From Acidaminococcus sp. (lineage in GTDB: Bacteria; Bacillota; Negativicutes; Acidaminococcales; Acidaminococcaceae), in NCBI GenBank assembly GCA_022482815.1, contig JAKVOM010000001.1:558001-622000 (forward strand): a stretch of 64,000 nucleotides of DNA, read 5' to 3'. The position numbers and the translations under genes are program-made. Under the pieces are notes generated by a model. That model worked only from the letters and a program-made list of their open reading frames with translations, was not told the origin of the DNA and did not search any database. Position 1 is the stretch's first letter. Each line of letters starts with the position of its first letter. Of this stretch, positions 15,427 through 25,063 are shown piece by piece.

Positions 15427-15867
15427 TCAGCCTTCGATGGCAATATACTTCTTGTCTTCTACCTGCGGAGCATCCTTCTTAGGAATGGACAGCTGCAGGA
15501 TACCGTCAGCGTATTTAGCCTTGACGTCCTGTTCGGTGATATTCTCACCTACATAGAAGGCACGAGCGCACTGACCACTGCTGCGTTCACGGCGGATGTA
15601 ATGGCCCTCCTTATCCTTCTCGTCCTTGCTCAGATTCTTCTGGGCGGAAATGGTCAGATAACCGTTCTGCAGTTCAGCATGGATATCTTCCTTCTTGAAG
15701 CCCGGCAGGTCAATATCAAGTTCATAATGGTCATTGCAGTCACGAACATCAGTCTTCATCATGTTTCTTGCATGTTTGCCATAAAGAGGAGAATGTTCAA
15801 ACATGTCATCAAAATCATCCATAAAATCATCAAACAGAGAATCATGTAACACAGTAGGCAGTAACAT
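15427..15867 (-). CDS. Small heat shock protein, Hsp20/alpha-crystallin family
   Basis: A 146-residue cytoplasmic holdase chaperone. The alpha-crystallin domain spans about residues 36-140, with the DLPGFKKEDIHAEL strand and the C-terminal ADGILQLSIPK motif typical of the family. The N-terminus is Phe/Asp-rich and short. A GGAGG site precedes the ATG. Upstream lies a sigma-A-type promoter overlapped by a CIRCE element, so expression should be repressed by HrcA and released on heat stress. HrcA itself is not in the window. Confidence 0.95.
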   Translation of the reverse strand: MLLPTVLHDSLFDDFMDDFDDMFEHSPLYGKHARNMMKTDVRDCNDHYELDIDLPGFKKEDIHAELQNGYLTISAQKNLSKDEKDKEGHYIRRERSSGQCARAFYVGENITEQDVKAKYADGILQLSIPKKDAPQVEDKKYIAIEG

Positions 15868-15988: not shown

Positions 15989-16017
15989 AATATAGCACTA
16001 TTTATTAGCACTGTCAA
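15989..16017 (-). promoter_or_regulatory. Promoter of the hsp20 gene
   Basis: On the minus strand there is a perfect -35 TTGACA, 17 bases, then -10 TATATT. The -35 falls inside the CIRCE element. Confidence 0.75.
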
Positions 16018-16031
16018 TAGTTGAGTGCTAA
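16005..16031. promoter_or_regulatory. CIRCE element (HrcA operator)
   Basis: The inverted repeat TTAGCACTG-N9-GAGTGCTAA matches the 27-base CIRCE consensus TTAGCACTC-N9-GAGTGCTAA at all but one position. It overlaps the -35 of hsp20, as expected for repression. Confidence 0.93.
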
Positions 16032-16084: not shown

Positions 16085-16174
16085 AGTAAGCATTTATCAG
16101 TGATCTCCACAATATCATTGTTGGGCTGAAGCCCAGGATCAAGCAGAAAAATGCCCACCCTGATGGTTTGCTTA
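16085..16174 (-). ncRNA. Second structured element downstream of the candidate RNA
   Basis: On the minus strand AGTAAGC at the 5' end can pair with GCTTACT at the 3' end, enclosing ATCAG/CTGAT, GATC/GATC and two local hairpins (GGGCTTCAGCCC and ACAATGATATTGT). It ends in five T. The nested arrangement looks like a three-way-junction RNA. AGTAAGC can also pair with a GCTTACT upstream of the preceding terminator, so the two structures may compete. No family was recognised. Confidence 0.35.
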
Positions 16175-16316
16175 CTAAAAAATCCCGGAGCGGCATCCGC
16201 CCCGGGATTAAGTTTTTATAGTAAGCAGAGGTGCAGGCGCGAATCGGAGGCTCATGAGGGTTCAAGTCAATAACCCCGTGATTCGCTCCCGGAACAACCT
16301 GAGCTTATTGAAATGG
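16175..16316 (-). ncRNA. Candidate structured small RNA with own promoter and terminator
   Basis: A promoter (16324-16352) reads leftward into about 100 nt that can fold into a rod: AATAAGC/GCTTACT, AGGT/ACCT, GCGAATC/GATTCGC and GGGTT/AACCC around a 9-base loop. It is followed by a strong terminator (AATCCCGGGGCGG-ATG-CCGCTCCGGGATT then T6, 16175-16209). No open reading frame fits. A 6S-like rod is one idea, but the length is short for 6S, and SRP-RNA signature bases are absent. Confidence 0.55.
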
Positions 16317-16323
16317 CTATTAC

Positions 16324-16352
16324 AGTATGTCACTTTTTAGCCATCATGTCAA
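16324..16352 (-). promoter_or_regulatory. Promoter of the candidate small RNA
   Basis: On the minus strand a perfect -35 TTGACA and a -10 CATACT are separated by 17 bases. The site lies 26 bases past the stop of the WG-repeat gene. Confidence 0.7.
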
Positions 16353-16377: not shown

Positions 16378-17790
16378 TTAGTCAAAATTTCCAGCTTCAT
16401 CGTATTGCGGTTTGATGACATTTTGACCATTTCCGTCTAAATATCCCCATTTTCCGCTCTTTTTATCCTTCACTGGTAGACGGTTTGCATGAAGAGAACC
16501 CATGTCGGTGTACTTTTCCGAAGGATTCATGACAAACTGGCCGTTTGCATCAATGATGCCCACCTTATCGCCGCTCTTTACGGCTGCGCGGCCGTCAGAG
16601 AACGCGGTAACGGCGCTGAAATGATTCGGGATCACAATCACATTGGACTCGTTGATAAAGCCCCAATGATCATCGAAGGAGAAAGCGGCCCGTCCTTCAT
16701 TAAAAAAGCCTAATTTATCGTACATAGCCGGCACCACGGTCTGTCCTTTGGTGTCGATCATGCCCCAGCGGCCCTCGGCATCCACCATAAGCGCGCGGCC
16801 GTCATCAAATTCGGATAACGCCTGATAATCGGTTGGAATGACTTCCTGGCCCTGCTTATTAATGGCTCCCATAAAGAGGGAAGACGGCCGTACAGCTCCG
16901 CCCGGGTAGACGGTGATACCGCCGCCCCAGCCGTGGTGATGATGGTGGTGACCTCCGCCCCACCAGCCGATACCGATACCGCCCCATCCCCAGCCCCAGC
17001 CGGGATAGCCGATACCCCAATCGCCGCCCCATCCCCAGCCGATGGAGATGTAATCGAGGAATGTGCGGTGCGAGCGCCTCACACCGACCTGGGCCAGACC
17101 ATTTTCATCGAAATTACCGACGTAGGCATATTTCTTCAGTTTTGCATAGCGCTGTCCCTGGGTATTAAACAGCCAGGAATTGTCGATAGTCGCTGTTCCC
17201 TGATGGAACTCGCCGACCTCATCGGCCTTGCCGACACTGAGTGCCGAGCCGTCTTTTCTAAGATAAACCCAGTTTTTATCCAGCTTGGCAGCGGCCAGGC
17301 CTTCACTGAAAGCATTTGCTTTCTTATAAAGTGCCGGGATCACGAGTTTTCCCGTAGTATCGATATAACCCCATTTTCCGTCTTTTTTGACAGCCGCCAT
17401 ACCCTCAGAAAAGTAACTTACTTCGTCATAGTCGCCGGGCAGCCGCCTGCCGCCGGCGTCATAAAACGACCAGCCCTGATCATCTTTGGCTCCCAGGAAA
17501 CCTTCATTATAAGCCGTGACTTTTTTGAGTTTCGGTGCAATGATCTCCCGTCCGTCCCGGTCATACATACCGAACTTACCCTTTTTTTCGACAAGAATAA
17601 CCGGATGGGATTCATCATTCTGGATTTCCACCTTGCTGAATTCAAGGGGCATAATTACCTTGCCGGAAGGATCAATGGTCCCCGCTTTATCATCTTTGCT
17701 TACGATGGCAAGATGCTCGGCCGCAAAAGCTGTCTGCCCGGCCAGAAGGCAGGTCAGCACCGCCAGAAGCAATGATTTACCTTTTTTCAT
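16378..17790 (-). CDS. Secreted WG-repeat protein with a Trp/Gly/His-rich insert
   Basis: A 470-residue exported protein. A Sec signal peptide (about residues 1-23, ending TAFA) precedes a series of WG repeats of the form G.WGYID..G..VIP..Y, at least eight of them. They split into an N-terminal and a C-terminal set. Between them, at about residues 250-300, lies a low-complexity stretch of repeated GWGWGG with a run of six histidines. WG repeats form beta-propeller-like surfaces of unknown role. The insert could bind metal (inference). A GGAGG site precedes the ATG, and the gene is transcribed alone. Confidence 0.85.
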   Translation of the reverse strand: MKKGKSLLLAVLTCLLAGQTAFAAEHLAIVSKDDKAGTIDPSGKVIMPLEFSKVEIQNDESHPVILVEKKGKFGMYDRDGREIIAPKLKKVTAYNEGFLGAKDDQGWSFYDAGGRRLPGDYDEVSYFSEGMAAVKKDGKWGYIDTTGKLVIPALYKKANAFSEGLAAAKLDKNWVYLRKDGSALSVGKADEVGEFHQGTATIDNSWLFNTQGQRYAKLKKYAYVGNFDENGLAQVGVRRSHRTFLDYISIGWGWGGDWGIGYPGWGWGWGGIGIGWWGGGHHHHHHGWGGGITVYPGGAVRPSSLFMGAINKQGQEVIPTDYQALSEFDDGRALMVDAEGRWGMIDTKGQTVVPAMYDKLGFFNEGRAAFSFDDHWGFINESNVIVIPNHFSAVTAFSDGRAAVKSGDKVGIIDANGQFVMNPSEKYTDMGSLHANRLPVKDKKSGKWGYLDGNGQNVIKPQYDEAGNFD

Positions 17791-23166: not shown

Positions 23167-24756
23167 TTACAGCAGCACCATCTTCGCACCGACAATGCCG
23201 TCGAGGTTACGGACAATATCCATTGTATTCTTATCTACCGCACTGTCGACGGTAAGTACCATCATAGCCGCGCCTTCTTCTTTCTTGCGGGCTACCTGCA
23301 TGGTTGCAATATTGACGTGACCGGCGCCGAGAAGCGTACCAATCTGACCGATCATGCCGGGTTTATCATCGTTGCGTGCGACAATCATATACGGAGCCGG
23401 CACCACGTCGAAGCGATATCCCTGGATTTCCGTAATATGCGGCTGATTGTCCGGTGTCACGACACCAGCTGCCATAAAGACCTTTTTACCGGCAGTAAAG
23501 GTGACCTGAATTTTATTCATGCGGCCTACGCCCCTGACTTTACCTTCTGTCACAGTAATGCCGCGCGTTTCAGCAGCCAGTTCCGCGTTGACCATATTGA
23601 CACGCTCGCGGAGGACAGGTTTCAAAAGGCCCTGCAGCACGGCACGGGTAATCAGGTTTGTTTCCTGCTGAGCCGCTTCCCCTTCATAGGTCACTTCCAC
23701 TTTTTCGACCGGTTCCTTACGCAGCTGGTAATAAAGCTTGCCCAGCGTCACACCCAGTCTTAAATAACCGCGCAGGTCTTCCAGCTCGGTAGCGGCAATG
23801 GCCGGCAGGTTCACGGCATTCGGCACCATCTTGCCGTCGAGGACGTTAATCACTTCTTCGGCGATGGCCAGACCAACCTTATCCTGGGCTTCAAAAGTGC
23901 TGGCGCCAAGGTGCGGCGTAACCACGCACTGAGGCATACCAATAAGCGGGGAAATCGGTTTCGGTTCATCCACGACGACATCGAGGCCGACGCTTGCGAC
24001 GATACCCGCCTTCACGGCTTCTGCCAGATCCTTTTCATTGTACAGACCGCCGCGGGCGCAGTTGACGACGCGGACACCGCGTTTGCACTTCGCCCATTCC
24101 TTGGCCGTCAGCATATCAATCGTTTCTTCTGTTTTTGGCGTATGAATGGTAATGACGTCGGACTGCTTGAGCAAATCATCCAGCGTTTCGCACTTTTCAA
24201 CGCCCAGACGCTGGAAACGGCTGTCCGGAATGTACGGATCATAGGCTATGACGCGCATATCAAACGCATGCATACGTTTTGCAACGAGGGCACCGATACG
24301 GCCGAGTCCGATGATTCCCAGCGTCTTATGATACAATTCGATACCCTTCAGATTCTTGCGGTCCCAGATACCCTTTTCCAGCATTTCGTTGGCCCGGACC
24401 GTATTGCGGCAGGAAGCCAGCATCAGACCGATGGTATGTTCCGCCGCGGAGATTACATTGGCTTCCGGCGTATTGACGACGATAATGCCGCGTTTAGTTG
24501 CTCCGTCAATATCGATGTTATCGACACCGTTGCCGGCGCGGCCGACAACTTTTAATTTTTTAGCCGCGTTGTAAAGTTCCTCATTGACTTTCGTCACACT
24601 GCGGACAATCAGGGCATCGTAGTCCCCGATGATTTTCAAAAGTTCCTCACGGGGGATTTCAAAGTTGACGGTTACTTCCAGATTCGGATTTGCCTTCAGC
24701 TTTTCCACACCTTTATCGGAAATACGTTCTGCCACAATGACTTTTTTCTTGTCCAT
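23167..24756 (-). CDS. serA: D-3-phosphoglycerate dehydrogenase
   Basis: A 529-residue long-form enzyme catalysing the first step of serine synthesis (3-phosphoglycerate to 3-phosphohydroxypyruvate with NAD). The NAD motif is GLGRIGALVAKRM. The catalytic Arg is in NCARGGLYNE, the Glu in VVDEPKP and the His in TPHLGAST. An allosteric substrate-binding domain and a C-terminal ACT domain (about 455-529) follow, suggesting feedback by an amino acid. A T-box leader immediately upstream couples expression to tRNA charging, most likely serine tRNA. It is a single gene. Confidence 0.97.
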   Translation of the reverse strand: MDKKKVIVAERISDKGVEKLKANPNLEVTVNFEIPREELLKIIGDYDALIVRSVTKVNEELYNAAKKLKVVGRAGNGVDNIDIDGATKRGIIVVNTPEANVISAAEHTIGLMLASCRNTVRANEMLEKGIWDRKNLKGIELYHKTLGIIGLGRIGALVAKRMHAFDMRVIAYDPYIPDSRFQRLGVEKCETLDDLLKQSDVITIHTPKTEETIDMLTAKEWAKCKRGVRVVNCARGGLYNEKDLAEAVKAGIVASVGLDVVVDEPKPISPLIGMPQCVVTPHLGASTFEAQDKVGLAIAEEVINVLDGKMVPNAVNLPAIAATELEDLRGYLRLGVTLGKLYYQLRKEPVEKVEVTYEGEAAQQETNLITRAVLQGLLKPVLRERVNMVNAELAAETRGITVTEGKVRGVGRMNKIQVTFTAGKKVFMAAGVVTPDNQPHITEIQGYRFDVVPAPYMIVARNDDKPGMIGQIGTLLGAGHVNIATMQVARKKEEGAAMMVLTVDSAVDKNTMDIVRNLDGIVGAKMVLL

Positions 24757-24784: not shown

Positions 24785-25015
24785 TAAAAAAATCCCATCC
24801 CTGATAACCCGCATCGGGTTCGTCAAGGACGGGAGATTTCTCACGTGGTGCCACCTTGTTTCGCTTATTCAGCCTCATATTCAGGATAACGGCTTCGCCG
24901 GATGGGTTGCGGCCCCCATCGTCTCGGGAATGGATTCCAAAAGAATTCCGCACTGCCTCGCACCGCCCGGCAGCTCTCTGAATCGGATATTCTATCGTAC
25001 TTGGTTCCGTCATTA
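24785..25015 (-). promoter_or_regulatory. T-box leader of serA
   Basis: On the minus strand the order is typical. A Stem I apical region contains AGAGAGCTGCC..GGTGCGAGGCAG. The T-box proper AAGGTGGCACCACG is at 24844-24857. It is followed by a terminator of AATCTCCCGTCC / GGGATGGGATT type, with an inner GAACCCGATGCGGGTT hairpin and seven T (24785-24838). T-box RNAs read uncharged tRNA. A TCC (Ser) triplet followed by A is a candidate specifier after Stem I's apical part, but this needs folding to confirm. Confidence 0.88.
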
Positions 25016-25063
25016 ATTTTATTAATAATATGGATGAATATTTTTTAACGATTGATTGCTATT

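Follow-up and report, generated by a model that had tools for sequence, protein, structure and literature searches.

Small RNAs can be derived from riboswitch leaders and act in trans, as exemplified by SreA of Listeria. A degenerated-seeming box upstream of MFS-family systems is mentioned in PMC2494555. Among the literature matches listed, PMC2494555 and PMC7583486 included, none was seen to describe a small RNA or T-box remnant at the Acidaminococcus place considered here. The locus is located between a WG-repeat protein gene and hsp20 (Table 1) in the 64,000-nucleotide stretch of Acidaminococcus sp. DNA that was analysed (hereafter the window, from genome G000). Comparison with related genomes makes it probable that the locus is a relic of a leuC T-box leader which would now constitute a short stand-alone RNA. 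The original prediction for this region, made from one sequence, had no means of recognizing that sister species have a leuC T-box leader at the corresponding place.

Table 1. Features of the locus and its surroundings (window coordinates).
Feature	Position	Strand	Remark
-35 hexamer TTGACA	16347..16352	-	TTGACA promoter at matching distance from the WG gene in eight of nine genus genomes
-10 hexamer CATACT, preceded by TG	16324..16329	-	CATAAT or TATAAT in the seven promoter-keeping relatives
44 nt past the -10 box, similar to the start of the leuC T-box leader (pre-stem I and lower stem I 5' strand)	16280..16323	-	
Rod-shaped hairpin, 27 consensus pairs with G001	16225..16304	-	
Intrinsic terminator hairpin, 13 pairs	16181..16209	-	six U at 16182-16177
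Second element, past the terminator, with AGTAAGCA...TGCTTACT at its bounds	16085..16176	-	found in G000 only
WG-repeat protein gene, upstream, synteny anchor	16378..17790	-	
hsp20 gene, downstream	15427..15867	-	own promoter-like site 16017-15989
Inverted repeat at the hsp20 promoter-like site	16005..16031	n/a (.)	sequence

The organization of the locus was compared in G000 and the eight genomes placed in one genus with it (Acidaminococcus, n = 9). The WG gene is present in all nine, and full-length relatives of it were found only in these and in G019 among 59 genomes of the family. The WG-repeat protein contains an insert rich in glycine, tryptophan and histidine. In five of the nine (G002, G004, G006, G007 and G008) the WG gene is followed by the promoter, a T-box leader and leuC. 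In three others (G000, G001 and G003) it is followed by the promoter at the same distance, the short RNA, a terminator and hsp20. The remaining genome, G005, has a terminator and hsp20 only, with no TTGACA promoter and no RNA, which shows that this lineage does without the short RNA. The TTGACA promoter, with a CATAAT-like -10 box, starts 25-26 nt past the WG stop codon in eight of the nine genomes, and its hexamers are kept in all three species with the short RNA. The five leuC leaders scored 77-89 bits with the T-box model RF00230, for which the gathering score is 93. The G007 leader (84 bits) aligned along the entire model, with ACACAGGUAAUGAACGGGAGCGGAAUC at the start as the 5' strand of stem I.

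In order to polarize these arrangements, a genome from another genus of the family was considered (G019, 63% complete), in which WG (45% identity) precedes a leader matching RF00230 (119 bits) and leuC. Since the outgroup shows WG, T-box and leuC, this order is probably ancestral, a polarity resting on that one outgroup genome. In a tree of the WG protein, the T-box/leuC genomes fall on one side of a branch (99/98) and G000, G001, G003 and G005 on the other; the long G019 branch is uncertainly placed in this tree, and the aligned rows run from stop to stop such that some residues precede the start codon. Identity between the WG-linked leuC of G019 and that of the A. fermentans type is 81-82%, whereas the leuC of G000 and of A. 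intestini (G003) show identities to the A. fermentans type and the G019 copy of 64-66% and 67-69%, respectively. The leuC of G000 is located elsewhere in the genome in the order leuA-leuC-leuD-leuB, with a T-box match upstream. As judged from the identities, the leuC of both G000 and A. intestini is of a lineage different from that of the WG-linked leuC. The simplest account would be a single loss of native leuC from behind WG that left the promoter and the leader base in place.

In promoter-anchored alignments the initial 44-45 nt of the RNAs from G000 and G001 matched the initial 50 nt of all five leuC leaders, with 0 of 2000 dinucleotide shuffles as similar in each of ten tests. These tests are not independent, since G000 is closely related to G001 and the leaders are themselves related. 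The likeness extends approximately 44 nt past the -10 box through CGGGAGCG-GAATC, the lower stem I 5' strand in the T-box match. The corresponding alignment of the A. intestini RNA was not convincing (74-90 of 2000 shuffles for four leuC leaders and 1033 for that of G008). An unanchored comparison was also conducted with a set of 23 T-box matches comprising 16 of the 18 from G000, six of the 17 from G007 including its leuC leader, and one of the 13 from G003; the two G000 matches left out were the one in the window at 24822-25022 and a match of 10.8 bits, and other genomes were represented by leuC leaders only. For the G001 RNA the leuC leaders ranked one to five, with 0-11 of 500 mononucleotide shuffles as similar. 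For the G000 RNA the leuC leaders of G006 and G007 ranked at the top, and the T-box leader at G000:174733 (score 32) exceeded the other three (31, 27 and 23); the shuffles as similar, of 500, numbered 0 for G006, 1 for G007, 6 for G002, 57 for G004 and 121 for G008, the last two not significant. The values for the G003 RNA were 63-141 of 500 for the leuC leaders, and other T-box leaders scored higher.

A covariance model built from the G000 and G001 short RNAs (R1) failed to match any of the five leuC leaders with E values up to 10, and the likeness is therefore confined to the 5' part. No evident similarity to a T-box leader was found in the terminators or the upper rod. The T-box motifs checked (GA motif, stem III and T-box sequences) are absent from the RNAs of G000, G001 and G003. 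The AGAGAG motif and the T-box sequence GGGTGG[TC]A, likewise lacking in these three RNAs, are present in the leaders of G006 and G019. At the G000 locus RF00230 gave no match at the gathering score or at E up to 10, and the next gene is no amino acid or tRNA synthetase gene, being instead hsp20 behind its own promoter-like site. The locus lacks the parts that a functional T-box requires and is not classed as one.

The TTGACA-N17-CATACT promoter claimed in the original prediction is present at 16352-16324 of the minus strand with an extended -10 (TG), as is the strong terminator, a 13-pair stem at 16209-16181. Four promoter-like sites were found between 15500 and 17200 compared with a shuffle mean of 3.0, indicating that the consensus alone is not above chance, and a lax terminator scan found one site compared with 1.8 expected. 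Since neither pattern scan exceeds shuffles, the case rests on comparison. Other terminators are located at the equivalent place in G001 and G003. The predicted promoter and terminator of its own are as expected of a small regulatory RNA, and the finding of promoter, rod and terminator at the matching place in two other Acidaminococcus genomes is consistent with the free small RNA that had been guessed. The inverted repeat overlapping the hsp20 promoter-like site is CIRCE-like. Since hsp20 has its own promoter-like site with this repeat, the short RNA is not an hsp20 leader in the usual sense.

The claim of a rod-like fold was borne out for G000, where the first 108 nt, without the terminator, gave a z of -2.81 with 5 of 300 shuffles as stable. 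The stability was weaker in the relatives (z -1.18 and 33 of 300 shuffles for G001; z -1.63 and 18 of 300 for G003). The 139 nt that include the terminator gave a z of -6.12 with 0 of 200 shuffles as stable. The consensus rod of G000 and G001, which was fitted to both sequences, retains 27 of 27 pairs with three two-sided and four one-sided changes; the observed pair values were reached in 70 of 500 column shuffles in which the 3' letters were dealt anew. When the structure was derived from G000 only and cut at 99 nt, one of 27 pairs was broken in G001 compared with a simulated mean of 5.1 (P 0.01), the two-sided pairs gave P 0.06 under simulated substitutions, and 10 of the 54 paired bases differed as compared to 15 of the 45 unpaired. 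With the three outer pairs included, 3 of 30 pairs were broken (P 0.07; P 0.11 for the two-sided pairs), the simulated mean being 6.1. The pair counts are for G000 and G001; a three-sequence MAFFT alignment, in which G003 was misplaced, did not enter them, and G005 was left out of one other alignment. The consensus pairs are intact between two species, but the tests for structural selection were weak (P 0.01 to 0.07). Structural constraint on the rod is plausible and no more, given the weak pair tests and a weak match of the model to G003. The apical loop of the rod contains UGAACCC (16264-16258, minus strand), which is common to G000 and G001, is not found in G003 and is complementary to common tRNA T-arms.

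Searches with Rfam returned nothing credible at the locus, at the gathering score or at E up to 10. A DNA search of 380 genomes of the class retrieved G000 and G001 (E 3.8e-14) together with six short matches of 24-34 bases (E 0.007-0.017). The class-wide covariance search that had been proposed, conducted with R1 on the 380 genomes under stricter filters, recovered G000 and G001 along with weak matches in G090 (E 0.05) and G002 (E 0.81). At the place expected in G003 the model scored 15.3 bits (E 0.26), which is lower than the 16.8 bits obtained on the opposite strand of the window locus. The short RNA was found in three genomes only: DNA and model searches of the 380 class genomes gave G000 and G001, and synteny gave G003. 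BLAST of the short RNA in phage records gave no match. Elsewhere in the window, a T-box leader (RF00230, 94.7 bits) is located at 24822-25022 of the minus strand upstream of an open reading frame (23167-24756), the product of which resembles D-3-phosphoglycerate dehydrogenase. No tRNA genes were found within the window.

The second, three-way-junction-like element that had been described past the terminator is present as a folded stretch with a run of T at its 3' end, but the fold is weak (z -1.65, with 10 of 200 shuffles as stable). No other copy was found in the G000 genome, and the element was accordingly rejected as a repeat family; there was no credible match in the eight congeners, and the intervals of G001 and G003 lack the element. 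The element holds AGGGTGG and was considered as a remnant of a T-box 3' part, a candidate also rejected since 79-463 of 500 shuffles were as similar to six leuC leaders.

The original prediction further proposed that GCTTACT, AGTAAGC and GCTTACT constitute a riboswitch or antitermination element, a function which the following results make very improbable. The three complementary copies do occur in that transcript order within approximately 140 nt, and two copies of an 8-mer together with one of its reverse complement were obtained within 244 nt in 75 of 20000 mononucleotide shuffles (a post hoc figure), although over the whole window the 7-mer is not enriched (5 found, 4.92 expected). The pairing geometry for two exclusive structures around the terminator is likewise present, but folds constrained to either pairing (-90.3 and -85.6 kcal/mol) both keep the terminator stem, so that the competing pairing is not expected to switch termination; an alternative fold removing the terminator, as in a riboswitch or attenuator, was not obtained among the constrained folds. 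Since the middle copy is 3' of the terminator U-run, it is present only in read-through RNA, and read-through is thus required for the upstream-middle pairing that predominates at equilibrium (0.85-1.0). Moreover, the intervals of G001 and G003 do not contain the repeat, and, as had been noted, the unit has no remaining gene ahead of the hsp20 promoter. Equally, it is scarcely credible that the locus encodes an additional 6S RNA or some other known housekeeping RNA. The shape is rod-like, but in the suggested comparison Rfam returned neither 6S nor SRP at the locus (E up to 10), the rod is only about 80 nt, and a canonical 6S RNA is encoded elsewhere in G000 (G000:C1:2571849-2572032, 77 bits).

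It is unlikely, though less so, that only the promoter and a few of the first transcribed bases were inherited from the T-box unit and that the rod is an unrelated new small RNA. The absence of evident T-box leader similarity from the upper rod and terminators, the failure of R1 to match any of the five leuC leaders and the unconvincing alignment of the G003 RNA are in agreement with such an origin; however, the likeness in G000 and G001 spans about 44 nt past the -10 box, through CGGGAGCG-GAATC. There is nearly an even chance that the locus is a decaying leader with no function of its own, perhaps still transcribed and terminated, in which nothing but the terminator counts, by closing the WG unit and shielding the heat-shock promoter; the relic interpretation given above, which leaves function aside, overlaps with this one. 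Decay is suggested by the retention of only a terminator in G005, by terminators that differ between species, by an RNA seen in three genomes only (G000 and G001 among 380 of the class, and G003 by synteny) and by the weak pair tests, whereas the promoter hexamers kept in the three RNA-bearing species and a consensus rod with no broken pair between two species argue against it. Selection on the rod is likely but weakly supported. A small chance is given to the alternative that a T-box leader lost its sensing parts and its gene and was kept as a trans-acting small RNA, with the stem-I-based rod under selection in Acidaminococcus. If the RNA acts, it would most likely do so as a small RNA or as a simple insulator separating the WG gene from the heat-shock promoter.

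The interpretation of the locus as a relic of the leuC T-box leader draws on the position of the promoter, the likeness of the first 44-45 nt in two species, the absence of the T-box motifs checked and the gene order in one outgroup, all of which are read directly in the sequences. In the ancestor, a T-box leader would have controlled leuC at this place. With a leuACDB operon from a different lineage located at another site of the genome, the native leuC would then have disappeared from its place downstream of WG. The promoter, the 5' end of the transcript and the base of stem I would have been retained, and the specifier-bearing upper stem I, stem III and the antiterminator would have gone; a short hairpin may have closed the stem, with other terminators standing behind it, and hsp20 would have become the neighbour. 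The promoter would now produce a terminated stand-alone RNA of approximately 140 nt comprised of a 5' leader, the rod and the intrinsic terminator. We infer that this RNA is transcribed and stable, as we do the order of events and any function. The locus would thereby be a polarised case of the way in which cis-acting RNA switches might become separate small RNA units upon gene loss, the intact version of the switch still being present in sister species. It also advises caution, in that strong local folds and complementary repeats can mimic a switch where comparison points to a relic.

Among known systems, 6S RNA (RF00013) has the rod shape in common with the G000 RNA, which is much shorter and does not match the model. 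The leuC T-box leader of the A. fermentans type (RF00230) has in common with the locus the place after WG, the promoter and an intrinsic terminator, and the first 44-45 nt are similar in the G000 and G001 RNAs, including the lower stem I 5' strand. The short RNA differs from that leader in having neither the T-box motifs checked, nor an amino acid gene downstream, nor an Rfam match. In riboswitch-derived RNAs such as SreA of Listeria a terminated leader fragment is a separate RNA, as is likewise predicted here; however, those RNAs come from working riboswitches, whereas in the G000 RNA the sensing part is gone and what is left is a putative small RNA only.
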